Shown one piece after another: positions 4,015 to 27,847 of a stretch of 64,000 nt of DNA. The notes under the pieces are model-generated. The model was not told the origin of the DNA and did not search any database. It was given only the letters and a program-made list of their open reading frames with translations. The number at the start of each line of letters is the position of its first letter. Position 1 is the first letter of the stretch. The stretch is from positions 620,001 through 684,000 of the forward strand of contig CP085833.1 of NCBI GenBank assembly GCA_020809705.1. Reading direction: 5' to 3'. This stretch comes from Calonectria ilicicola. Taxonomy: Eukaryota; Ascomycota; Sordariomycetes; Hypocreales; Nectriaceae. The position numbers and the translations under genes are program-made.

Positions 4015-4875
4015 GCGTTACATTCTGATGGACATGGTTTCCTTCTTCTCTCTCTGTTACCTTCCTTCCTATACATTTCCTTTTACTTTCTTTTTTTGCG
4101 CAACAAAAATGTTTGATACACGCATGGCATTGGAACTAGACAATACGTCACATGTTTGATAGAGTTATACAGATTTAGGTACACAAGATGGAGGTATCCT
4201 GGTGATAGATGGCTGATGACCGTCTTTTTCCCCCGGCGTTATGGGATGGGATATGACATAAGGTAGAGAGTGTCCAGGCGATAGCTTGCCGACGCTAGTC
4301 ATTGTTCAATTGCATTTTCGTTGTTCTTCATCTTGACCATCGCCCCTGAATTACTTGACTCGAAGAGATTAGCATACGAGATTGCATTGGCCTTAGCGCA
4401 CAAGCGACGATTAGACTCCGCCGATCTTTGGGATTATAATTATGAAAAACCGAGACACGTGCTCGCACCATAGAGAAAAACGCGCCGTTGCAACTAGCGA
4501 AATATCACAGCGAGATAGACTAGATTATTTTCTGTTAGAAGCGCGCGGGGTTTGCCATCCCCGCATTCGCTAGCGTGTACTTGTGGTGAAGTTCGGTAGT
4601 ATAGGTCGGCAACTTGGGTCTTGCTATCCCGAAAGGGAAATAGGGCGGCGATCAAATGATGACTGGCTTCTTCATTTGGAAATTGCAAATATATCCAAGT
4701 CCGAGTTCAGAAGTAATTAATGTTGTTGGCGTGTATCAGAGCAATAGTATTTCTAGTTGATTAGTTTCTATTTGATAGTGCTAATGCTAAAGTTCAATCC
4801 GGCGTATGGATGGCACCGAAGGTCCGAGAGTGGGACCGAGAATCATCTACCTAGTCTACCTGATAGACCTGAATC
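4015..4875. other. Intergenic between convergent genes
   Basis: This is the 3' flank of the carrier and of the flavin-reductase-like gene, which converge. Only short frames without family resemblance are present. Nothing else is recognisable. Confidence 0.5.
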
Positions 4876-5783
4876 TCATTTCTCGCTTTCCTCGACGGGA
4901 TCCTTATCCTTGCCCTCGAGAAAGTGCCCTTGCATTTTCTCGTGCTGCGCCCGATTGTTCTCGGATCGCCCTTCTAGCCCGTACATGACGTCATTTGAGT
5001 CACCGACAGATGGAATAATCATCTGGAATGTGTCTTTGACGACGCAATAGTCGAAATATCCCAGTCTTGCAATAGGCTGCGTCAGCTCCGGGTCCAGCTT
5101 TCCATCCTTGAGATACTTTTCATTAATGTGGATACCGATGACCTGGCCAATAACAACATCGACTGATCCCATGGGAGGATTTCCAGGGAGCCTCAGTGTA
5201 GTATAGTACTTGCATTCGAACTTTACAGGGCTTTCGCGAACCATGGGAATTTTGATGGGCAAACTTGTTGACCACTCCTTCTCAAGGGAGCATTCCTCGA
5301 ACTCATCGACAGTATAGGGAACAGTCTTTGCGGAGATGTTGACAGCCTCACGTAGTGGATAGGTGGCCAGCTGCCAGCAAAAATAACCCGTAGATTCTGC
5401 GTTGTGAACAGTATCCTTGCGCTCAAAGCCACCCGAGCGCTGGCCTGTAGAGGAGGTTGCGGATGGATCACATGGTGTTTGGTTGGAAGCTGAGAGCTAG
5501 TTAGCCTCGAAGCCTTATCTTGAGGATAATCACAAGACGTACAGAACATGACATATGGGGGATCGAATGTCAGGTTATTAAATTGCGAGTATGGGGCAAG
5601 ATTGTATATCGGCTCTTGACCAGGCAGAGTTGGGGACACGGTGCTGATCCAGCCAATTGGCCGCGGAACCACACATGCCTACGGGTGCCATTAACTAACA
5701 GCCAATCATTCCTAGAGATTGATGCATACCTTGAAGGGATTGAATGGCAACCCATGATCCGTTTCACCTGGCTTATAGAACAT
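4876..5783 (-). CDS. Flavin-reductase-like, FMN-binding split-barrel protein
   Basis: Predicted flavin-binding protein of the flavin reductase-like (DIM6/NTAB) family, which reduces FMN with NAD(P)H or uses FMN as cofactor. The gene model has three exons, 5783-5730, 5678-5543 and 5489-4876, with introns of 51 and 53 bp whose phases join cleanly to give 267 residues. The N-terminal MFYKPG...DHGLPFNPFKA leads into CVVPRPIGWIST, the family's conserved opening strand; later the block TGYFCWQLATYPLREAVNIS is also family-typical. The C-terminal tail is charged and low in complexity. No signal peptide is seen, so it is probably cytosolic. It lies in the same orientation as the alcohol dehydrogenase 415 bp away, which suggests but does not show a shared redox role. 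Confidence 0.85.
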
Positions 5784-12297: not shown

Positions 12298-13722
12298 CTA
12301 CTCTTTCATAGAGGTTCCGGACAAAACCCAACCCAAAATTTGGCATACAGAAAGCCAAGCACCAGCGGTGGCAATAGCATCCTAAATATAATCAGCTGAA
12401 AATACTTGAACAACATTCGGTAGCCGAAGGCTTACAGTCCAATCGAGTGCGGGCTTCAAGCTATAGTTTTGACGGTCAAAAGTTGGGAACTGGATGTAGA
12501 GCGATGTAAAACATGCCCCGCTTGATGAATTACTGGAACTTGTATCGCACTGTAGGTCCCTTGACGGAACCGGTGAGATATTGGGTTGGTAATCATAAGC
12601 AGTCTGTCCCTGGCGCTCTCTCTTTTTGATCGCAAGGTTGACCTGAACTATCCCGTTGGCGTTGATGAGATTCATTTGTGTATACCCGGTCTCGAGGGCT
12701 TCCTGGAGTGACAAATCTGGGTCAAACATGGCGAGCCAGAGACTGGGGGATATTTCGCGTGAGGAGTCGGTCTTTGCCCTCGATTGATTGTCTATGATGA
12801 TACAGTTAGCTCAAAGATCTGGATACAAAGACAATCCCCAAAGGCTTCGAAGCAACCAAAAAAAAGAAGAAAAGGTCACGAACAGTAGAAGAATGCCTGT
12901 GCGACCATGAGAGATGTTGGCTTTGTGCTGAGTAAGTCCTCGGTCGCTTTCAGCATAATCATGCTGTAATTGACGTCTTGCCATTGGAAATTGTGGGTAA
13001 TGGACTGATCCCAATTCTCACCACAGTTACAACGCTGTCCTGGTGAAACCTTTGAGCAATTAGGGGCTGATTGGTCAAACCATCCAAGAAAGCACTTAGG
13101 CTTGGCATAGACAGTTGTTAATTCTGCTTGGGATGTCCAATCTAGTCTCCTGAAAAGTGCCACTGACGGAAAGCGCATCTGATCCTAGAAGCCAAACAAT
13201 AAGATGGATGCAGCAGTATGGGGAAGGAAACGGTATACTTACAACAGTGTCTTCCTCAATCGTGATTACGGATTGGGTTAATTTGGGATGCCAGACTAAG
13301 TAATATAAAATCGGCAGCATAGCCAAAGCCAGAACAGAAGTCAGCACAGTATTAGCCAAGTTGCAGCTCCAAGAGGGCCAGCCCTTTGAGAAGCCATCTA
13401 TGAGCGATAAAAAGAAGAGAATAAGAGCAGCAGTGCAGAATAGCACCAAAAAGATAATTGGGAGAGGCTGAACTGAATGGGCTATGAAGATGGCGCCTAG
13501 GATGAGAGAAAGGGATAAAAGTAGAGTACAAAGACTGGCTATTGTCTTTGATGGGAATGTTTGCCCATTCATTTGCCCATTCATTTGCCCATTCATTTGC
13601 CCATTCATTTGCCCATTCATTTGCCCATTCATTTGTCCATTTATTTGTCCATTCATTTGCCCATTCTTTTGCCCATTCTGGACTTGTGAACCCTGATAAC
13701 TTGTTCTTAAAAAAGATAGCAT
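12298..13722 (-). CDS. Unknown multi-pass membrane protein with Asn-Gly-Gln repeats
   Basis: Not recognised. Four exons (13722-13243, 13184-12884, 12791-12436, 12381-12298) with good splice sites and branch-like CTAAC sequences join in phase to 406 residues. Residues 16-55 are ten near-perfect copies of Asn-Gly-Gln-Met/Lys/Ile. They are followed by two or three membrane segments (TIASLCTLLLSLSLILGAIF, PIIFLVLFCTAALILFFLSL, ANTVLTSVLALAMLPILYYL). A long soluble region follows, rich in cysteine and serine (CNCGEN, CDTSSSNSSSGACF), with a short hydrophobic C-terminal stretch. The topology suggests a membrane anchor with a cysteine-bearing outer domain. No enzyme motif is visible. The start is the first in-frame ATG and its open frame continues through the repeat. 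Confidence 0.7.
13561..13680 (-). repeat. 12-bp minisatellite, ten units, coding
   Basis: Ten head-to-tail 12-bp units lie fully inside the first exon of the membrane-protein gene and encode the Asn-Gly-Gln-X array. Units differ at only a few bases (two carry a T in place of a C), so recent slippage is likely. The 12-bp period keeps the reading frame whatever the copy number. Confidence 0.95.
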
Positions 13723-15400: not shown

Positions 15401-16571
15401 CTAAAAATGATACGGAATCTCAAATGATTTCCCGGAGATTTCCTGGTACAGAGAGTCCATCGCATTGACAACATCCTGTGGGAGATGGCCTTCCTCAACC
15501 ATCCTCAGGCTTGCCTGTAGTTGTTCTGAACTGGACGCACCAATTACGACGGCATCTCCAAACTCTGCCGTCAGACTGCTATGGTATACCGTCCATCTCA
15601 AAGCTGCTGCATGGCCACCAATCCCATACCTGGCGGCAGTATCTCGAACACGATCCGTGGAAGCTTCAATGGTTGGCTGTACATAGGCGGAGTAGTACAT
15701 CTGGCCATGGGAATGCTGGCCAACGAGAAGTTATTAGCAGCTCTCTTGGGTGGGGTAATGAAGGATTGGCCAATCTCACAGACTTATCAAATCGGCTACC
15801 AGGCTGGGCATGCTTGTAATTCTTGGAAAAGAAGCCGCCACCAGCAGGACTAAATATGCCAGGGGTGCCTTAGCTTAGCACCAAATACACAGAAACATTA
15901 AATGGAATAACTTTACCTCCAGGCATAAAACGAAATGCCATGCTCGCGAAGCAGCGGGATGAGATCTTTCTCGGCACCTCTAACAATCGGATTATATTGT
16001 CCTTGGTACACGCTTGGTTTAACGAATCCACGTCGTTCACAGATTTCGAGAATGCTCTTCACTTCGGATGCGGTGTAGTTCGACAGACCGAATCGTTTGA
16101 ACTTGCCCTCCCTATACGCATTGTCCATTGCCTCACACGTCTCTTCGAATGGTGTTGCCCTGTCCGGATGGTGTAGATATTCGATGTCTAGGTTTGCGAT
16201 TTTGAGCGCCGTGAGAGAATCGTCGATGCTCTTCGCGATCTTCTCCTTCGAGTGGCATCCAGGCTCTTGTGAGGAGACCTTGGAGTCAATGGCAAACCGA
16301 TTACCGGCTTCGACAGCTCCGAGTCTTGGCTCAGATGTACCCGGAGCATGTGGAGAGTAACCACGGGCTGTATCTATCTTGCGGTGACCACGGTCGTAGA
16401 AGGCATCCAAGATTGCCATAACTTCATCCTGTGTATCGAAACGGACCATTGGGTCTAGAGATTTGTCTCCAATCTAGCGTTGCGGTTAGTCTTAGAATCC
16501 CGAACGCCCGGATATTGATCTGATACATTTCCAGTTCCAAACACAATCTGTATAGTCGACTTTCCTGCCAT
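15401..16571 (-). CDS. Aldo/keto reductase, AKR7 (aflatoxin-aldehyde-reductase)-like
   Basis: NADPH-dependent reductase of carbonyl compounds, predicted cytosolic. Exons 16571-16527, 16473-15917, 15849-15780 and 15715-15401 join in phase to 328 residues, the AKR7 length. The catalytic set is visible: Asp and Tyr in DTARGYS, Lys in DSKVSS, His in YLHHPD. The blocks GLSNYTASEV and YQGQYNPIVRGAE are AKR7-like, and PAGGGFFSKNYK matches the family's loop after the barrel strand. For the last intron two CAG acceptors keep the frame (15716 or 15701); the upstream one, nearer the branch-like GCTAATAAC, is used. It is divergently transcribed from the alpha/beta hydrolase, and the shared 695-bp promoter holds two TCGGNCCGA sites, so co-regulation is inferred. 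Confidence 0.9.
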
Positions 16572-16809
16572 TTTGCAATGTAATATTTAAAACGTTATGT
16601 AGTTCTTTGAAGGTTTAGTATCAGTAAACGTATTAAATAGGATAGGGGAACTTAGATAGTTCAAGATGGGCATACTAGAAAGAGCACGTAACGAGCCTAT
16701 TTGTAGATGCAGAACCCTTCTGCAACATGAAACATAGCTAACTATACCGAGGATTGGCGCTCGGGGACAAGTTGACCCGAATAGTGTCGGACTTGTGACT
16801 TTGGTTGGC

Positions 16810-16818
16810 TCGGCCCGA
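16810..16818. promoter_or_regulatory. TCGGNCCGA palindrome, N = C
   Basis: Perfect copy, TCGGCCCGA, in the divergent promoter 239 bp before the aldo/keto reductase ATG. Inverted CGG triplets are the usual contact of dimeric Zn2Cys6 regulators (established). Binding by the regulator encoded at 22.5-25.3 kb is inference. Confidence 0.6.
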
Positions 16819-17020
16819 ATTCCATTTACATCATAATGGCCTAGTCTGGACCTTCCTACAAGATAGTTAGGTTTAAGCTGTCTCTAATAAAGGTAATTGT
16901 AGGATTAATCCTTGTAGAAGTGATTAGATATGCTAGATTGTAACACCTATTCCTTACATTTAGAGGTTTTCGTGGAGGCACTTGGTCCACTTGTACCACG
17001 CCGAGGTCCGAATACCGTTA

Positions 17021-17029
17021 TCGGGCCGA
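17021..17029. promoter_or_regulatory. TCGGNCCGA palindrome, N = G
   Basis: Perfect copy, TCGGGCCGA, 238 bp before the hydrolase ATG. Together with the copy at 16810 it gives each divergent gene one site at nearly the same distance. Confidence 0.6.
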
Positions 17030-17266
17030 CCCCTGGAGCGATCCGTCACCCTGAATGCGATTGCCCGAGTTAACGTGAGGTTGCCAACGCGTCGCAATTA
17101 GCGGAGGCTGCAGATAATTCGGTGTTTAAATATCTCGTTTACTTCTCTTCCTGTTCAAGGCATCCTTACTATTGCATCTTAATTGCTTCCGAAATTTGCT
17201 TTTCGTAATCTTACGCTTCTGGTATAAAAAGAATTTCCTTGAAAAAGAAAACACTTTAGCTTCATC

Positions 17267-18209
17267 ATGGGCTCCCAGAATATCGAGTTCCTCGCTACCG
17301 ACGGCGTCAAACTACGGGGTTCCTTCTTCAGTGCGGGCACTTCGCGGCCTTGCGTGATAATGAGCAACGGGGTAAAATTGGTCATCAGTTGGTCTGATTG
17401 TTATACTAACTCGGCATTAGTTCTCCGGGCTCAAAGAGCAATTCTTGCCGGATTTTGCTCAACGGTTCCAAGAAGCTGGGTACACGGTTTTGATCTACGA
17501 CAATCGAAACTGGGGTGAGAGTGAGGGCATGCCGAGAAATGAGACAGATCCTCTCGCCCAATCCCGCGACTACTTCGCGGCCTTCGATTATGTCTCCTCC
17601 CTGCCCAGTGTTGATGCTAGCAAGATCGTGTACTGGGGATCTAGTATGGCAGGTGGAAACGTTATCTCGGCAGCTTCGGTGGATAAACGAATTCGGGGCG
17701 TCATCTCCCAGATCCCATTCGTCTCTGGGGAATTCCTGGCCGCTACCCTCGGACCTAAGACAAACCTAATATTCACGGACCGCAACACCGTCAGCAATGG
17801 GGGTGCATCCAAGATGATCCCAGTCACTCCAGAGTCCCGCGAAGCAGCTGAGTCTGGTACCTCCCAGGCCATCCTTGCCGACCCGTCAGTCTACGTCTAC
17901 CTGGACGAGTTGGATCGACGTGGTATTAAGTATGAGACCATGTGTACTACTCAGAGCCTGCTCTACCTGCAACAGCATGAACCTCAGTCCCTAATCCATC
18001 GCGTGGCGCCCACCCCGATGCTCATGATAGTCGCAGAGCGAGATGACAGCTGTATCACGCACTTACAGTTGCGGACTTTTCACAATGCTTTGGAACCCAA
18101 GAGATTGCATATATTGCGTGGAGCTACACATTTCTCGCCGTATTTCGGTCCCCAATTCGAAGAGAACATCAAAGTCCAGCTAGACTTTCTGAAAGAGGTC
18201 ATGGCATGA
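17267..18209 (+). CDS. Alpha/beta hydrolase of the af380 / DLH-like type
   Basis: Predicted cytosolic hydrolase or acyl-transferring enzyme. Exons 17267-17371 and 17421-18209 (49-bp intron) give 297 residues. The block YDNRNWGESEG followed by PRNETDP and YWGSSMAGGNV is typical of the fungal group that includes the af380 polyketide transferase. The nucleophile elbow Gly-Ser-Ser-Met-Ala-Gly lies near residue 110. The acid is probably the Asp in VAERDDSC and the base the His in GATHFSPYF. Members of this fold hydrolyse esters, lactones or thioesters, so the substrate is open. It shares its promoter with the aldo/keto reductase. No PKS or NRPS gene is in the window, so a degradative role is at least as likely as a biosynthetic one. 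Confidence 0.88.
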
Positions 18210-18525
18210 GATGGATATAACAAAGCGATTTGATGGAGCCGATGATCTATCCATGTGTGCTATATGTTAGATACAGACAAAATATAAACGCTGCTTTTAT
18301 ATTTTCAAAAATTGGAGGCTTAGCCCTTACCTACAGGAGCCGCGTCGCGGTTGGGGAACCTTTTGTTGACTATATCTTCCACGTGACGAAAGGCGAGAGG
18401 AAGTAGTCAGATGTTCGAGTAGACAATATATCAGACAGAGACCCTAGCCCACTGGGAATAAAACCTGCACCTATAAAAATGGTATGTGCATCTAGAATAC
18501 ATCTAACCATTCAGTATTCGGTTTG

Positions 18526-18705
18526 TTATTTCACAAGCCAATCACTTCTGGAACATGAGCCTGCAAAATAAGTAGTCAGGAATAAAGTCTATGAAACCAA
18601 TGGAATAAATTAAAACTTACCAATATGTAAGTATTTGAACTTGCTGACAAGATCAGCAAGTGTTACACCGGGGTGTCCGAAGGGCTGCGGCCCAAGCTTC
18701 TCAAT
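18526..18705 (-). pseudogene. Possible 3' remnant of an unidentified gene
   Basis: On the minus strand, 18705-18621 reads openly as 28 codons containing LGPQPFGHPGVTLADLV and stops at a canonical GTAAGT donor. A 60-bp intron ends in TTGCAG, and a short exon reaches a stop at 18526. The upstream side has an acceptor-like TAAAGTAG, but no open frame continues between it and the next gene at 18971. The coding-like look and paired splice sites suggest the tail of a lost gene. The family was not recognised. The remaining DNA of 18210-18970 shows nothing else. Confidence 0.35.
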
Positions 18706-18970
18706 CTACTTTACCGAATTATGTTAGCATATTCACGTTTCTCTTTTTGATAAGTGTGAAAAATAGTATGAGAGATGATGGAATCACTGTAAAAAATAAA
18801 TGCCGCTTATGGAGTGTTCGGCTTATAGAAGTGGAGGAGCGCGGTGAAAAAAATATGATGATGGTTTTATTCAATGACTTAGTCACCCTAATGCTATCAG
18901 TGACGCATCAGTGGACTATTTTCGAAGACCAAACTCCATCTAACCGATAAGAGCTCTTAATTCTGGAATT

Positions 18971-20074
18971 CTACTCGATGTCCCATACGCCTTCGAGGAT
19001 ATCTACATGGGACAGCCACATATAAACACGTGGATCCTTGCTCTTGAGATTTGCCATCTGGCGGATGATGGCTCTGGCAGATTCGGGATCCTCATGCAGT
19101 GTATGGTTCTTCGTAAAGGTAACTGCATTGCCAAATGGTGCCTCGGGATAGTATGCAAAGTGGAGACAATGCATACAGTCTGCAACCAGAACCACCCATC
19201 GAGTCTCGCCTTGCTTGCTCTTGGTGCGACAAAGCGCTGCCAGGTTCCCGTCTAGATGGCCGGGAGCATCGATTATGAAGAAACTTCCATCGCCAAAGAA
19301 ATCATAGGTTCGTTCGAAACCTGCCAATGGCTTCCAGAGGTCAGGATGCTGTTTCGGAGAAGGCAATTCTTCAATTGGCAGCTCCGAGGCTTCAGGATCC
19401 CAAATCCTTCCGTCCCATTTGCCATCCTCATACTTGGGCCAGTTTCGCTCAGTGAGAGCCAATGTCCCAGTACCGCAGAGAATCTTGGCATTGGGCAAGA
19501 ACTCTTTCACAGGAAACATATGGTCCCAGTGTGCGTGGCTGAACGTGATACCAGATTAGTGAGAGACCAGAAGTCAGGTTCGATAGTTTGTCGTACCTAG
19601 CAATGACATATTTAACAGAGTTAGGGTCTTCGCCAAGAAGTTTCATGTCATCCAAAATGGAGTTGGGAGCTGGTTGGGTTTCGAAGAACTTGTGCTGAAT
19701 GTTCTGAATGCTGGGCGGGTAATGGCTGAGATCCTGATCACATTCAGTTAACATGGTTGCACTTTGCTAAATGTAAATGTAACATTGCATACATGAGAAA
19801 TGCCTAGATCAAACCAAAACTTCGTCTTCGTCGCCTGATGCGTAATGAAAAATCGCCATGACCCACAGACGCCGTCTCCACGAGCGTCTTGAATTGTGAT
19901 ATTCATTGGAGCCACCATTGATCCCGTGTTAAATGGCGAAACCTTGACGAAGGCATCGGGCGTGGATGCTTCAGGAAGAGTCGAGTCGAATGGGACGTTC
20001 ATGGTTCTGTTGTCGCTTAAGAGCTGAAAGTGATTGAGATCTTGGAGTGAGTGTTCTGATTTGAAATCATGCAA
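18971..20074 (-). CDS. Metallo-beta-lactamase-fold hydrolase, lactonase/AttM-like
   Basis: Zinc-dependent hydrolase of the MBL fold, probably acting on lactone, ester or thioester bonds. Exons 20074-19793, 19733-19597 and 19538-18971 give 328 residues. The metal site is assembled across the second intron: SHAHWDHM (HxHxDH) at about residues 140-147. GHLDGN (second-shell His) and VADCMH (bridging Asp) follow, with SHVD near the C-terminus. The long insert with EGDG-like FFGDGSFFIIDAPGH resembles fungal AttM-type lactonases. The start is uncertain: an in-frame ATG at 20002 would shorten the protein by 24 residues. Two perfect TCGGNCCGA sites lie 98 and 114 bp before the ATG used here, tying it to the 16-27 kb group. 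Confidence 0.85.
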
Positions 20075-20171
20075 GTCAACTCATAAAGGTATAGAAGTGA
20101 CTATTTATTTTCAACACCATGCGTACTTCAGGCAATTAACCGACTTTGTGGAAGAGCAGGCTAATAGGATG

Positions 20172-20290
20172 TCGGACCGATTGGATGTCGGGCCGAACCG
20201 AGCCTCCCTTGAAACGATTGAGCCTCATCGGACTACAATGTCGGACTATGTCTAGCGTCGGATTAAAACATCGGCATCGATCCAAACTAC
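20172..20290. promoter_or_regulatory. Two TCGGNCCGA palindromes and a run of TCGG half-sites
   Basis: Perfect copies at 20172-20180 (N = A) and 20188-20196 (N = G) are 16 bp apart centre to centre. They are followed by four TCGG half-sites between 20228 and 20275. The array lies directly upstream of the metallo-hydrolase gene. Confidence 0.6.
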
Positions 20291-20708
20291 AGTCTTGGTC
20301 TACTAGATCGTTTTAGACTTTAAGAGGTCTTCCGACTTGATGGTATAGCCCGGGGGCTCCGGTCCAGATAAGATGACTTGAGGTTTTAAATATCAAAATA
20401 GCTTCAAAATGGGATAATTAGTCAGTTTTATTAATTGCTCTTCTGAAAGCAAGAGTAAGCTCAACCTGGGAAGAAGCGCCTATGATCACACAACTAGGTT
20501 CTACAGTTATTGGTACTGTTAGTAATAGTATCTGTACCTGCAATCAAGTCTCCTACAATCGTGTATCGACAATTCTGAGACACCCTCAAAAATCTTGACA
20601 GAAAACTCTATCAATTTGAACACTTATTTGAAGGCTTAGACAAGATGCATTCCATCGCGCAGTTAACTGGTAATTTTGATCCTCAATAAAAAGTATATTT
20701 ATTGAATA

Positions 20709-21606
20709 CTACATATTGAAAAGCTGGTCACTTTGGATTTCAGACCACGTGGGAATGTTGTGCCTAATGGGTGCATCTGTCATCTTTGCTACCATAAGCC
20801 CAATCTGGGTGGCATCTTCAAAGTCTTTACAAGTTCCACCATTCCGAATCAAGCCGCGGCTATGCCATCCAACCTGAACTGGGAGATCCAAGGGGACCAG
20901 GGTGCTAACACAGATCAATGCTGTTTCCTTCGCAGAAAGAACTGTCTCATCGGACAGCCAATAACCATATGTGAATTTGAGTGCGAATTGATCTAGCCTT
21001 GTTAAATATGCCCTCAATTGTTTTTCTTTTTCTTTTTTTGGGTGGAGGGGAACCGAACAACGTACAAATATCCCGTGAAAATGTCTCGAGTGGCTCGATC
21101 ATCCGGGGCAGATCATCCCGGTACATGTTAGTGAGATAGTTCATTCCCCGTCCCTCAACGTCCTGAGGTCGATAGATGGATTCCCTAATAAATTCCGTGC
21201 CTGGAAACGGGTTCTGCCCAACCGAGCGGCTAGAGCTTTTTTCTAGAATGGACCGATATACTCGATCATGTGCTCGACAAAGTGGATAGAAAGAATTCAA
21301 GAGTTTTGGGACGCCATATATGAATGAGGCTTTCAGAAGAGCTTCCTTCATTCTGCGAAAAACATGACCAAGATACTCTTCTGTCTTGTTGGACGCTATA
21401 GCAACTTCGTAGACTTCGGCAACAAGTACCGGTTGGTTTGCAGATGTGAGAGCAGCAGCCTAATAAATGATTAGTAAAATCCTACTGGTAATAGACGTGG
21501 TGGCATTGACCAGTTGACAGTACCATGTATCATTACCAGCTCTGGCCTCGGCGCTAGGTAGCCCAAGTTCAATTAGGAGTGTAGTAATCTCTTTTGAAAT
21601 CACCAT
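20709..21606 (-). CDS. AhpD / carboxymuconolactone-decarboxylase-like protein
   Basis: All-helical CMD-fold protein. Family members decarboxylate carboxymuconolactone or act as thiol peroxidase partners; many fungal ones are unassigned. Exons 21606-21511, 21459-21066 and 20992-20709 give 257 residues. Typical blocks are MKEALLKASFIYGVPKLLNS, then LTNMYRDDLPRM, and after the second intron YGYWLSDETVLSAKETALIC with WHSRGLIRNGGT. Only one cysteine lies in the active helix, so the AhpD CxxC is absent and a peroxidase role is doubtful. The first donor (GTCAAT) is weak and chosen by frame. Its promoter has TCGGTCCGA at 21724 and a one-mismatch copy at 21752. This suggests membership in the hydrolase/fumarylacetoacetase group. 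Confidence 0.8.
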
Positions 21607-21723
21607 GGTTGAACAGAATTAATCAATAGTGTCTACAACCATACAGTCGTCCAAATTATTCAACCCAGGTATGCTAAGGCCGAGGCCCGTTACAAATAAG
21701 TACCATTTGTCCCCACTCAAGGT

Positions 21724-21760
21724 TCGGTCCGATGGTAATTACTAATAGGTATCGGCCCGT
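21724..21760. promoter_or_regulatory. TCGGNCCGA palindromes upstream of the CMD-like gene
   Basis: A perfect copy (N = T) is at 21724-21732 and a copy with one mismatch, TCGGCCCGT, at 21752-21760. They are 118 and 146 bp before the ATG at 21606. Confidence 0.55.
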
Positions 21761-22058
21761 GTTAACCAACTATTAAATGGACCAATCGGAACGAATTAGA
21801 AGCTAGCGAACTCCTATTATCACTTATAGTTCGCTTGATTTATATATGATTACAATTCCAAGGTAGTAATACCTTCTGTCTTCTGTGGGCTGATGCGCTC
21901 CTAGAGCAAGCAAGTATGCTTTGCATTTTGTTTGTTCTATTGTGATTGACCGAGCTATAAGTAGGTCTAGGGTAGGTGACACCTGATTGGTTTTCCTAAT
22001 TTGGTGCTGCTAGTTCTGCCTGTCCGAGCTTTCGTGCCATGGGTCATGAGACTCGAGT

Positions 22059-22067
22059 TCGGCCCGA
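22059..22067. promoter_or_regulatory. TCGGNCCGA palindrome between CMD-like gene and regulator
   Basis: A perfect copy (N = C) lies 386 bp before the regulator ATG, followed closely by a TCGG half-site at 22071. Its position allows autoregulation of the Zn2Cys6 gene (inference). Confidence 0.5.
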
Positions 22068-22452
22068 TATTCGGAAATATACTTGACCATGCATTTATGT
22101 ATCGTAATATTCCCTTGGAAATAGACAATATATGTAAATTAAGATGGTGACTGTACTTGGATTGCATATCTAAGAATAATTACTGGATTATCCTCAACAT
22201 CTTATAGTAGGAATATAGATCATCTTATTTTTACTGTCCGCACCCTAACCCGTAACCTGTATTATTTATTAGTCTCGCCCAATTATTTCTTCATAGCTCG
22301 AAACTCTAAATCTTAGTGTCACGTGCACAGGAGCCAACCCATCCTTTGACCCCACGTTATCTTGCTGTCCCTTATTCTTGCTAGCTCCCATTCTCGGTAG
22401 ATGTTGCAACAAGAGCTTTGAGCATCGCAAGAACACATACACTGTCAGTGAA

Positions 22453-25325
22453 ATGCCCTCTTCAAACACCCGGATAACTGGTCGTCCGGCAGGGGCGGAG
22501 CTGCCAGCTTCTCCCTCACAACTCAAGCGGTCTGTGCCTGTGTCTCGTGTCGCTTGCTACAAGTGCCGATCCCAGAAGGTATGTGTTCATATACCTGCGT
22601 TAGGTTACCCACAAGCTTCGAAACGGATAGCTGAATGTATAGTTCTAGTTAAAATGCAGCAAAGAAACTCCTTCTTGTTCAAGATGCGTAAGACGTAAAG
22701 CAGTCTGTCAATATCCGCCACTGCCCAACCGCAAGCAGCTGGCGGCTGAGCGCAAGATGCGATATGACGCCCGAGGGAATCGCAACTCGTCGAATGCGGA
22801 TTCAACAGGGATACAGCAACAAACCCAGCACATCTCAGTGGAAGAAGAATATACTCCTACTCGACTTGAACATCAAGCAACCAATCAGTTGCTCCCTCAA
22901 CCATCTGAATCAAGTCAGCCTTTAGGCCTAAACAAGAGAGCCCTGGGTTCTGAGCTGAACAATTCCTCCCAGTCTATAGCCAGGACTAACCAATCCGATT
23001 GCACTGATCAGAATACCTTTAGGTCTGAGACTGCCCGGGAAATGTTGGTTGATAGTGCTGAACAATTCACCTTTGACTTTGGCGAATCTTGTCCACAGCA
23101 GGAAGCTAGCCCTCATGTAAGCCAATGGAATCTCCTAGAACATGGAATATTTTCAATTGATGCCTCCCATAGTTAGAGACAGACCATCGGCGTGATGATG
23201 CCATTTCTCGCTCCTGTGAACATTGCCAAGGAGAGAGTACATACCTTCACCCACTCAACGGGGTTAATCCCAATTCACTCCCTCCGCGAGCGATCGGATT
23301 AGCTATGATAGAGATATACTTTGAACGGGTATACAATAGCAAGCTCATGTTTGACATGTCTCATTTCATTGAGAGATACCTCAAAGGAATGCACCCAGAC
23401 CTTCTCTTGCGCGCTGTCTTCGCCCTATCCACGTTGTATGAAAGCCGAGGCACTCCCCAACCCTTTCCTTATTCCGATGAGATACCACGGTTTTAATGAC
23501 ACTATTGCATGCAGGTTCCTCAAATCCGACAGGTCTTCTAGTGAGACTTTAGTTCATCAGCTTGAAGTGCCAGAGTTGACCATGTTGAAGTGTTTTCACA
23601 AGAACGGTATCGAATGGGCCAATGAAGCCAGCCGTGGGGCGCTTGCTCTGGCGGATAAGCCATCATTAAGCATAATCCAGACTCTTGAATGTTTGACCCT
23701 TTACTGGTTTGGTGTCGGAGAGATGACTCGCGCGTCTGTGCATGTAAGTATGCCATCCTTGGCGCGTTCTACATCCTATTCACATCGGATGCTAATATAG
23801 TTGCTGTCTTTAGCCCTTGCCTACCATTTATGTCATAATCTAGGTTACAATCGGCCATTACCAATTTCTCGCCAAATGCAGCAAGATAAGTTAGAAGAGG
23901 AAGAGAAGATACGGTGTTTCTGGGCCTGTTGGTGCTCCAACGTAGTCGGTGGCCGTCCTAGAGTCTTTTCAAGGATCGCATGGTTAGATGCGGCTTGGTT
24001 GCCATTGCCTTCAGCATTATCACGAGTGTCTAACAAGGACAACCAAGTTGATACAGAAACAATGGATGAAAACTGGCAGTGTGTGCCCTGCAACAACATT
24101 CAGCGCGTCTCCAGCATGAATGGCCATTTCGGGTCAAGCTTGCTCAGTGAACTGATTAAGGTAATGGGAATCTGGTATGGCTCTTTCCTCTCATAGCCTT
24201 TTCTCGTTAATAAATAAAACCCTGTGATTAGGATTCGAGTTCGGGAACTTGCCTTGATTGAGTCCACTGAAGATCTGATCAGTGAAAGAAAGTTTCTTGT
24301 GGACGCCCTTACTCGTATCGAAGAATCGAAATCCTTCCCGCCCCATCCGAATCTTTTTTGCGACTCTTTGAGCGAAGTCGAAATGATTTTTCAGATTCGA
24401 AGCATGTACAACCTCTGTGTCATTTTCATCCATGCGTCCTTAATGCCGTTATTCACTGGCCGAAGAATTAAACGAGATCTAATACCTGAACATCTTTGGA
24501 AGGAATCCATCGACGCCATCATCAAGCAGGCGTGTCTAGCAGGAGAACTCGCCTCTTCTTATTTGTCAGTGCCACGAGATGTTACAAAACTGAACCCCAC
24601 AGTTGGATATAGTGTGTTTGTCTCTGGGTCAGTGCTTGTTATGATGAAGCGACTCCAAGATAAGGCTCAGTTGCATGGACACTTGCATGGACAGTCCTCA
24701 AAATATCATCCGATGATTGAGCCTCAGTGGGTCAGATCGATCGTGTCTCTTTTGGAATTGCTTGGTCGTAATTGGCAGCCACTCCAACGGTTTGTATGTT
24801 GATTTGATCCAACTTCCCTAGAATGCGTGAGCTGATCAATAACTTGGTGGTGCGCAGGCAGTAAAATTAAAACAGGTATCTGCGCCTCAATCAGATGAAA
24901 TTCGAAATCCTGAGCCATGTATCTCTGATCCAAGCCTATCAGGGGCTACGAATACAGTGTCTGAAACGGGGACAACAGAACTAGACGCTGCTTCATTGGT
25001 GTTATCAGAGTATATCCCCGGTAACAAAGCTTGCTCTTCGTTGGACACAATGCTAAGCAGAGAGATTCAATCTTTTGTCGCTTGGATATCTTCGCGATTC
25101 TTCCAAGAGCGAACATCTTTAAACCAAACACCCTCAAACCTTGCTGCTGCACCCCATTCTTTGGCCATTGACAACTGTACACCTGAAGAGTCTATATGTG
25201 GTAATGCACAGGACAAGGCTCCAAGGGAGCAAATACATATCCCTCTTGAAGGTGATTTTGATATGGAGCAGTGGTCTGCGATTTTCCCACTAGATGATCC
25301 CTTTTTCGCCTTCATCCATCAGTAG
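22453..25325 (+). CDS. Zn2Cys6 transcription factor with fungal middle-homology region
   Basis: Nuclear regulator. Seven exons (22453-22578, 22649-23116, 23173-23435, 23515-23743, 23801-24174, 24232-24793, 24858-25325) join in phase to 829 residues. The zinc cluster is split by intron 1 and reads Cys35-X2-Cys38-X6-Cys45-X6-Cys52-X2-Cys55-X6-Cys62, followed by the basic linker NRKQLAAERK. The middle-homology region runs from about residue 230 (IEIYFERVYNSKLMF) through the typical EEKIRCFWACWCSN. The C-terminus is acidic with aromatic residues, as in activation domains. The intron 5 donor TG|GTATGG was preferred over the nearby GTAATG because only it keeps the frame. It sits inside the block whose promoters share TCGGNCCGA and has that motif upstream, so it is the natural candidate regulator. 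Confidence 0.9.
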
Positions 25326-25710
25326 GAGAAGTGCTCCACGTTTATAGGGAGGAAATGAGAGATTTGGGTGGGTATCCACTCGATTTGACAGTACTGGTTG
25401 GACTGGAACGCAGGAATCCACGTTGGAAGTTAGTTGAATAAGAAGTCGTCGATGGGAGGGACACACACCCACTGGTCTTATGAAAGTAGAAGATTGTGGT
25501 GGCACTAGGATTGCTTTTTGTTATTGATCTTTTCTTGCTTGATGATGCCGTATTTATTTATCTTCCCCGAGACAAAATAAATTTCTTCGTTGCTAGCTAG
25601 GTTCACCCATTTGTAGTAGCTGCATGTTAGGAGTGGCTGATGGTTTGATCATTCATAAAAGAGGCTGCTGCGCTTTCAAGGGAGTGTGATATTCTAGATG
25701 GTTTCCCTCA

Positions 25711-26011
25711 TCGGACCGGTATTTTCTCTTCGGCCCGAGTTGAAATAGCCCCGATGCTTCGCAACGACAGATCGGACCGGAATTAGTCATATTGATGAGT
25801 AGATTCCGTACTTGCATAGAGCGCTTAATGATGTACCAGCTTGGGAATTAACTTTCATCGGCAGGGGAGAAGTATACAGCGTCGAATTAATGAAATGGAA
25901 TCACCGATATGGAATACACTGTTACTGGGTGCGTGAGGTCGTTTGGGAACGAACCAGTCCGAATTGATTGAGCTTGTCTACAATTTTTTAGGTGTTGCAC
26001 CTTCGGGCCGG
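25711..26011. promoter_or_regulatory. Four TCGGNCCG(A/G) sites upstream of fumarylacetoacetase
   Basis: One perfect copy is at 25730-25738 (N = C). One-mismatch copies are at 25711-25719 and 25772-25780 (both TCGGACCGG) and 26003-26011 (TCGGGCCGG). All lie between the regulator's stop and the fumarylacetoacetase ATG at 26151, which is preceded by a C/T-rich leader. Confidence 0.6.
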
Positions 26012-26150
26012 TACAATAACATGCCTCACAAACTGTTGCTCTTAAAGGTGGCTTCGGGTAGCTAAGAATCTAAGTATTCTAAACCAAAACTTTCTTCACA
26101 CATTTGCCTACCAAACCTTCTTCCACCCTTCTTTCTAGTACACAGAAAAA

Positions 26151-27847
26151 ATGCCTGTTTTATCTCCGGTTTCAGTCGCACCAGACAGCCCCTTCACTTT
26201 ATCAAATCTACCTTATGGGGTTTTCAGTGCCCCAGATCTAGGCTTGGTACGCGCTGCTATTCTGGTATTGAATAGTGTTTCATCTAATATCAACAACAGA
26301 CCCCCCGTGTTGGAACAATCTTGGGAGACCATGTCGTCGACTTGTCAGTGATTGCACAACACGGACTTTTCAACGGCGTGTTCCCCCAGGATTCATTGTC
26401 CGTAAGCGTTTTGTCTGCAGTAAGTCGCCCATTGACAATATATTATTTTTCATAAACTTGATAGCTCTGTCAAGTAATAGTATATATATCTTTTAATAAT
26501 CACGGCCTATAGTCAGATCTTCATGCACTTGCTGAACGTCCTGCTGCGGAGAGACAAAATTTGCGTCAAAGATTAACGGAATTGCTTTCCTCTGAGACCT
26601 CTGACTTGATCCAAAACAAGTCCGTGAGTAATAGGGCGTTCATACGGAGTAACCTGGTCAAGATGCATCTGCCTTTTCGCATCTCTAACTTTAGTGACCT
26701 CACCAGCTCGGCCGTGCACTTTACAAACGTAAGCTAAAGCCCTCTCACTGAAGGCAATCCTTATCACTAGTTCTTGGGCCTAATACACGAGTCCAGATGG
26801 CCAGGATTTACGGCGTTCCGCTGCCAGAGCAATTTCGAGAAATGCCGCAGGGTTACAATGGCCGAACGTCTTCGATTTTCCTCAGCGGAACAGATTTTCC
26901 CCGGCCGAAGGGACTGTTCCGTTTGGAAGGCGAACAAACTGCCACATACAACCCGACTCGCAAGCTGGACTTCGAGATAGAAATTGGTCTTTTCATTTCG
27001 AAGCCCCTTCCGAACGGAGCAATAGTGCCTGCGTCCGCCGCTGTGGGTGGGGATTGGGCACAGGATCATCTATTTGGGCTGGTGCTTATGAATGATTGGT
27101 CTGCTCGCGATGTGCAAGGCTATGAAAGCGGGCCTTTGGGCCCATTCCATGGCAAGAGCTTTGCCACTTCCCTATCTCCGTGGGTGGTCACTCTCGAAGC
27201 GCTTTTGGAGCCACAAAATCAAATCAAGCAACATAACAGTCGCCTAGGGTTTACCAGACCGGTCAAAGAGCTAGAATTATACGAGAAGCAGACAGGAATT
27301 TTTGACATTGAGCTCTCGGTCACAATTGATAGTAAGTCGTGAGTATTTCCAAAGTGTATTCTTTTTGTACTGACTATTCAAAAAAGGGCCAGGGAAAGGG
27401 ACAGCAGAAATCAGCATTTGCAACCTAGGATGTGCAATCTGGAGTCTTTATCAATTGATTTCGTATCAATCTCTCTCTGGCTGTGGGCTTAGAACCGGTG
27501 ATCTCATCGGGTCCGGCACTTTGTCGTCTGATGAGGTAAGTTATCCAGTTGGCATTTCAACCAGCGGTAGGAATCTGACTATTCTCACGCAGGAAACCAA
27601 GCCTTCTAAACCTCCCTTAACTAAACTTGCATGCTTGCAAGAAATCACATTGAGTGGCGCGAAGCCACTCAAGGTCCCGTCTGGTGAACACAATGAAGAA
27701 TTTGAAATTGGCTGGCTAGAGGATGGAGATGAGATTCGTGTTGAGGGCTGGGCACGGACTCCGACTGGTGTGAGATCTATTGGATTTGGGCAAGTCGTTG
27801 GACGAGTTCAACCCGTAGGCTCGCCAAACACTAAATATGTAATTTAA
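26151..27847 (+). CDS. Fumarylacetoacetase (FAH family)
   Basis: Would cleave fumarylacetoacetate, or a similar beta-diketone acid, to fumarate and acetoacetate, the last step of tyrosine/homogentisate breakdown in the cytosol. Six exons (26151-26246, 26300-26419, 26513-26728, 26797-27331, 27393-27535, 27593-27847) give 454 residues, near the usual 420-430. The N-terminal SH3-like domain begins with PFTLSNLPYGVF. The catalytic domain has GYNGRTSSI, EIEIGLFI, MNDWSARDVQGYE, PLGPFHGKSF and CGLRTGDLIGSGT, all FAH signatures with the metal-binding acids. Two donors fit at the end of exon 2 (26402 or 26420) and two acceptors before exon 5. No homogentisate dioxygenase or maleylacetoacetate isomerase lies beside it, so it may be a paralog serving another ring-cleavage route. 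Confidence 0.9.

Follow-up and report, generated by a model that had tools for sequence, protein, structure and literature searches.

The regulatory logic in which a Zn2Cys6 transcription factor encoded within a gene cluster acts through a palindrome common to the promoters of this cluster is already known, as proposed for GliZ. A TCGG/CCGA palindrome occurs in nearly every promoter of the gliotoxin cluster (PMC4006717, PMC7022936), and the 2014 paper presents the GliZ site as proposed, without experimental proof, and lists gliZ and gliA as having no TCGGN3CCGA site (PMC4006717). Here we analyze a nine-base dyad, TCGGNCCGA, in a 64-kb stretch of the Calonectria ilicicola genome (contig CP085833.1, positions 620,001 to 684,000; hereafter, the window), where it precedes six genes, one of them encoding a Zn2Cys6 regulator. 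As with GliZ, a Zn2Cys6 factor resident in the cluster goes together with a palindrome that recurs upstream of most of its genes (here, of all six modelled ones). In contrast to GliZ, the spacer in the block is one base instead of three, and the promoter which the regulator shares with its neighbour does carry a site; moreover, the gliotoxin cluster is biosynthetic, whereas the cluster in the window looks catabolic. The parallel with GliZ drawn in the sequence-only reading of the window held for the logic and failed for the site, since the spacers differ and TCGGN3CCGA, present once in the window (at 12417), is absent from the block, and a GliZ-type site was rejected for the block promoters.

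The inner core of the dyad is also known, both from CLR-1 and from a list of Fusarium motifs. The site listed for Neurospora CLR-1, CGGN5CGGNCCG (PMC5468973; text of PMC12911045), includes the same CGGNCCG, while the table of the latter paper prints CGGN5CGGNCGG, unlike its text. A CLR-1-type site was rejected: the only CGGN5CGGNCCG of the window falls within coding sequence, that of the alpha/beta hydrolase, and the promoter sites all lack the additional CGG at N5. The Fusarium graminearum motif M18, CGGnCCG, obtained by comparison of four Fusarium genomes (369 instances, 93 of them conserved, according to the table), has the same seven-base core, and its table row names no regulator (PMC2853525). 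For two other Zn2Cys6 factors, TerR of the terrein cluster and the Neurospora pectin regulator PDR-1, a T preceding CGG is either important or conserved (PMC4360782, PMC5469009). TerR, however, is described as recognizing a direct repeat, TCGGHHWYHCGGH, mostly as a monomer, and PDR-1/RhaR an inverted repeat with an 11-base spacer, whereas the window motif is an inverted repeat with a spacer of one. Among the papers listed by the literature searches, none was found to print TCGGNCCGA, with its spacer of one base, as a site; those matching TCGGACCGA were assessed from their titles. A similar motif, TCGGNNCGA, is reported for yeast Stb4, and inverted CGG triplets separated by a single base are at the tight end of the known geometries.

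An exact scan of the window recovered seven perfect copies of TCGGNCCGA, starting at 16810, 17021, 20172, 20188, 21724, 22059 and 25730 and all lying within 16,810–25,738; these were the seven positions claimed previously. The four one-mismatch copies claimed along with them (21752, 25711, 25772 and 26003) are present as well, and both sets are intergenic by the gene models. Two further one-mismatch matches were noted, one at 17749 within the alpha/beta hydrolase coding sequence, the other, TCGGAACGA, at 21786 in the promoter shared by the CMD-like and regulator genes. The sites fill four intergenic regions, which carry the modelled promoters of the six genes, and the earlier statement that every one of these promoters bears the motif proved correct: a perfect site stands before each gene, four of the six being served by two shared divergent promoters. 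The models are splice-aware computational ones, with some splice sites set by eye and start codons predicted; for the regulator, the second exon was started at 22649 and the start of the fifth was taken as 23801. The genes and the regions between them follow one another in this order:

15401..16571, minus strand: aldo/keto reductase (AKR) gene; 4-exon model, Aldo_ket_red 5.6e-52
16572..17266: divergent promoter of the AKR and alpha/beta hydrolase genes; perfect sites 16810-16818 and 17021-17029
17267..18209, plus strand: alpha/beta hydrolase gene; 2-exon model, Abhydrolase_1 3.5e-08 on the open reading frame (ORF) of the second exon
18210..18970: tail-to-tail gap between the alpha/beta hydrolase and metallo-hydrolase genes; internal negative control
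18971..20002, minus strand: metallo-beta-lactamase-fold hydrolase gene; 3-exon model, motif HAHWDH, Lactamase_B 9.9e-06
20003..20708: metallo-hydrolase promoter; perfect sites 20172-20180 and 20188-20196
20709..21606, minus strand: CMD/AhpD-like gene; 3-exon model, similarity to P0025
21607..22452: divergent promoter of the CMD-like and regulator genes; perfect sites 21724-21732 and 22059-22067, near-perfect 21752-21760 and 21786-21794
22453..25325, plus strand: Zn2Cys6 transcription factor gene; 7-exon model, 823 amino acids (aa), Cys6 cluster and Fungal_trans domain
25326..26150: fumarylacetoacetase (FAA) promoter; perfect site 25730-25738, near-perfect 25711, 25772 and 26003
26151..27847, plus strand: fumarylacetoacetase-family gene; 5-exon model, N- and C-terminal FAA domains, PF01557 7.9e-29 and PF09298 2.2e-19

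The centres of the perfect sites lie upstream of the modelled start codons by 243 base pairs (bp) for the AKR gene (site 16810), 242 for the alpha/beta hydrolase (site 17021), 174 and 190 for the metallo-hydrolase, 122 for the CMD-like gene, 390 for the regulator and 417 for the FAA gene. Pfam backs five of the six gene assignments. The exception is the CMD-like protein, for which a Pfam scan of the gene models gave zero matches and whose sole database relative, P0025 (32% identity), is named as a member of the alkylhydroperoxidase/carboxymuconolactone decarboxylase family. Database relatives of the metallo-hydrolase reach at most 54% identity, those of them that are fungal and named at most 53%.

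Such a concentration of sites is very unlikely to be a product of chance or base composition, judging from shuffles, simulations, a genome scan, random placements and a scan of dyad types. In 100 dinucleotide shuffles of the window, perfect copies averaged 0.73 and never exceeded 3. In 3,000 first-order Markov simulations of the four promoter regions, the inner CGGNCCG, present there in 11 copies, reached a maximum of 4, and the nine-base dyad, present in seven, a maximum of 1; all 11 promoter copies of the inner core read TCGGNCCGN on the plus strand. An unsupervised k-mer scan placed CGGCCCG first among the 7-mers of the promoters (7 seen, 0.10 expected). The exact scan detected zero TCGGNCCGA sites in the tail-to-tail gap 18210-18970, and TCGG/CCGA half-sites amount to 13-19 per kb in the site-bearing promoters versus 8 in this gap and 5-11 in the genes. 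Upstream of the metallo-hydrolase, the site pair is followed at 20228-20340 by several half-sites standing singly (TCGGAC/TCGGAT).

The genome (69.93 Mb, 12 contigs) contains 475 copies of TCGGNCCGA in total, compared with 1,138 of a reversed control word, so that uniform expectation is 0.063 sites per 9.3 kb. Complete site positions were obtained for contigs C1-C4 (182 sites in 31.33 Mb) by two centre-specific searches; statements on C5-C12 rest on the totals and on full lists of two 11-base forms. On C1-C4, the densest 9.3 kb holds three sites, and this only at C1:300447-300982 and C2:8041091-8045095, compared with seven in the block. When 475 sites were placed at random, five fell within 8.93 kb in 3 of the 5,000 trials, and never more. 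Site pairs with a spacer of 1-30 occur once in the genome, this being the window pair 20172/20188, and those with a spacer of 31-61 also once, at C2:7641478, a place outside any ORF of at least 130 codons. Two or more sites fall inside 9.3 kb from 17 start points on C1-C4. The other pairs examined on C1, C2 and C3 look unrelated: both sites of C1:7164564/7165522 lie within a listerin-like ORF, the second of C1:2918178/2921475 within a WD40 ORF, the first of C2:7998404/8001165 within an aminotransferase ORF, and both of C3:5858197/5859257 within an ORF without a Pfam match, while C1:924745/925620 lies near a Nup54 ORF. On the 1.36-Mb contig C12, a 6-kb stretch (L026, G000:C12:374000-380000) has two TCGGNCCGA sites, at 2696 and 3263, and zero ORFs of at least 150 codons.

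One of the two densest places is a paralogous cluster, which was picked by a genome search with the regulator protein, the motif not being used. This search gave 43 matches, of which, beyond the regulator itself, multi-exon ones were found only on C11 and C2. The C2 locus (C2:8.03-8.05 Mb; L016/L017) comprises a regulator relative (minus strand), a metallo-hydrolase relative (plus; 43-45% identity to that of the window), an FAA relative (minus; 30-32% identity) and an MFS transporter (plus), with Pfam matches to Zn_clus, both FAA domains and MFS_1. Its 20-kb region contains exactly three sites, all in the two divergent promoters that serve these four genes and each reading TTCGGNCCGAACG, where 0.14 would be expected (Poisson P for three or more, 3.8e-4); in the 960 bp of the promoters themselves the expectation is 0.0065 (P = 4.6e-8). 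As in the window, the tail-to-tail gap, here between the metallo-hydrolase and FAA genes, has zero sites. The form TTCGGNCCGAA occurs in 34 copies genome-wide, all of them listed, and the C2 trio is the only close group. On C9 (L024, G000:C9:263600-273500, site 4946), the extended form of the C2 sites occurs singly, as TTCGGCCCGAACG, upstream of a DUF3425 gene whose bZIP match stays below the cut-off.

The two clusters hardly align at the nucleotide level. Comparison of the whole clusters gave two short weak matches (E 0.017), the first between the FAA coding sequences, the second between 25841-25863 and a C2 stretch outside the site-bearing promoters; in promoter-against-promoter blastn, no match was better than E 0.095 or longer than 18 bases (range, 10-18), and many of the matches overlie the sites. 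Since the promoters otherwise do not align, the dyad common to them is unlikely to be a relic of duplication. TCGG-N1-CCGA was the only one of 3,328 dyad types (256 four-base words, each at spacers 0-12) to be found at least twice in the promoters of both clusters.

The spliced regulator model has a CX2CX6CX5-9CX2CX6-8C cluster near the N-terminus. In an 820-aa version of it, three residues shorter, PF00172 was matched at 1.2e-06 (28.9 bits, cut-off 21) and PF04082, the middle regulatory domain, at 3e-09 (36.8 bits, cut-off 23). The closest solved structures to its DNA-binding domain are those of GAL4 and LAC9. At least 23 homologs were found, the best database relative being 35% identical, and no named binding site for the regulator was seen in the material examined. 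Two homologs, P0002 (Aspergillus affinis) and P0023 (Fusarium acutatum), each stand in the database as one protein combining regulator and FAA domains, and the sequence of P0021 (Fusarium globosum), despite the name FAA hydrolase, is regulator-like. The simplest reading is that the regulator and FAA genes would be adjacent in those fungi and merged in annotation; these deposited single proteins thus suggest that the regulator–FAA adjacency recurs. In the relative on C11, the Cys6 domain reads intact across a presumed intron; in the tree, this relative is paired with a homolog from Exophiala (88/75, under the strong-support mark of the tool).

Considering these facts, the nine-letter palindrome is very probably the docking site of the cluster's own control protein, by which the genes would be switched together. 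We regard a role of TCGGNCCGA as operator as likely: it would be bound by a pathway-specific Zn2Cys6 activator (encoded at 22453-25325), which would drive the six genes, its own included. The regulator would act as a dimer whose two Gal4-type zinc clusters each contact one of the inverted CGG triplets, on either side of the one-base spacer, upstream of the AKR, alpha/beta hydrolase, metallo-hydrolase, CMD-like, regulator and FAA genes. Its inducer would be a substrate, probably a lactone, an ester or an aromatic-derived diketone, upon which the whole block would be induced together, the regulator raising the expression of its own gene in a positive loop. Binding, dimer geometry, activation rather than repression, the catabolic role and the substrate are all inferred, as are the inducer response and self-regulation of the factor. 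Independent support for the sequence-only reading, according to which the resident regulator would drive both the block and itself, comes from the C2 cluster: there, too, the dyad stands next to a regulator of this kin.

Several observations weigh against this interpretation. Matches with up to one mismatch number 23 in the whole window versus a shuffle mean of 18.07, and 16 of 100 shuffles gave at least as many. In the C2 cluster, Pfam matched Zn_clus and not Fungal_trans in the regulator model and matched nothing in the metallo-hydrolase model, which was assigned by similarity to that of the window. The tree, built from 17 of 23 homologs (P0006, P0010, P0012, P0016, P0020 and P0022 being left out), gives no support for or against a clade of the window and C2 regulators, as its deep branches, including the positions of both, are weak and the C2 branch is very long. 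The relative on C11 (C11:1.34 Mb) has zero TCGGNCCGA within roughly 8-10 kb (a 20-kb region). The flanks are variable among the window sites and read TTCGGNCCGAACG in the C2 cluster, so the full recognition sequences of the two clusters may differ. Finally, the dyad occurs at two sugar loci. One of them (L006, G000:C1:296000-305900) carries three TCGGNCCGA at 4448, 4565 and 4975, in 536 bp between a maltase gene of the GH13 alpha-amylase family and a sugar transporter gene, two of the three reading GTCGGNCCGAC; beyond the GH13 gene lies a Zn2Cys6 ORF (242-1864), which differs from the window regulator. The other (L018, G000:C11:1436700-1446600) carries two GTCGGNCCGAC at 4955 and 5048, 93 bp apart, between a sugar transporter gene and a GH32 gene. 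These copies make it probable that more than one factor reads the core, and because the maltase trio, a candidate maltose regulon site, stands near another Zn2Cys6 gene, the core alone pinpoints no single regulator.

The sugar loci also provide the basis for the best-surviving alternative, namely that the sites are real but read by another protein, e.g., a wider-acting sugar or catabolite factor, while the resident factor acts elsewhere. We consider this unlikely: GTCGGNCCGAC accounts for four of the five sugar-locus sites, its G/C flank pair is found in none of the seven window sites and none of the three C2 sites, and the C2 trio adjoins a regulator relative, not sugar-enzyme genes. GTCGGNCCGAC has 24 copies genome-wide; at six further places where it stands singly (L023, L027-L031), the ORFs of L027-L030 were scanned, and the three with Pfam matches have no common function. 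The flanks may discriminate among factors. More tentatively, several unrelated Zn2Cys6 regulators of this genome might all use TCGGNCCGA, as a compact Gal4-type operator of inverted CGG triplets one base apart, and be told apart by the flanks; an equally tentative flank code would be T/A plus ACG in the C2 cluster, G/C at the maltase and GH32 loci, and a looser one in the window.

Less likely still is that the resident factor binds the sites and mainly represses the genes until the inducer arrives, or binds as a heterodimer; sequence cannot separate activation from repression, and a perfect site also stands upstream of the regulator gene itself, but cluster-resident Zn2Cys6 factors are mostly activators. 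That the site cluster reflects chance, base composition or a duplicated promoter is hardly credible: the half-site is short and one-mismatch matches stay at the chance level over the whole window, yet the genome scan, shuffles, random placements and promoter simulations contradict chance, and the bases around individual window sites differ from one another, contrary to duplication.

With respect to the favoured role of TCGGNCCGA as the operator of a catabolic cluster, the closest gene sets are FDB1 and FDB2 of Fusarium (benzoxazolinone detoxification), with which the block shares a metallo-beta-lactamase, a hydrolase, a resident Zn2Cys6 factor and, in the case of FDB2, an aldo/keto reductase (PMC4726666, PMC10512309). 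The FDB1 set is given as NmrA-like, amidases, dienelactone hydrolase, metallo-beta-lactamase, transporters, salicylate hydroxylase and Zn2Cys6 (PMC4726666). Identity with FDB1/FDB2 was rejected, as this list names neither a CMD-like nor an FAA gene and no amidase is among the six genes of the block. In the F. verticillioides region FVEG_03387-03405, the C6 factor gene FVEG_03393 (not induced) adjoins the FAA gene FVEG_03394 (benzoxazolinone-induced).

Taken together, the block and its C2 counterpart offer a specific candidate pair of regulator and operator with a replicate inside the same genome, and the boundaries of a hydrolase/FAA cluster are suggested by cis-elements alone. The one-base spacer, if bound, would inform how Gal4-type dimers read spacing, and, should several regulators indeed share the dyad, one short core would serve insulated regulons via the reading of its flanks.

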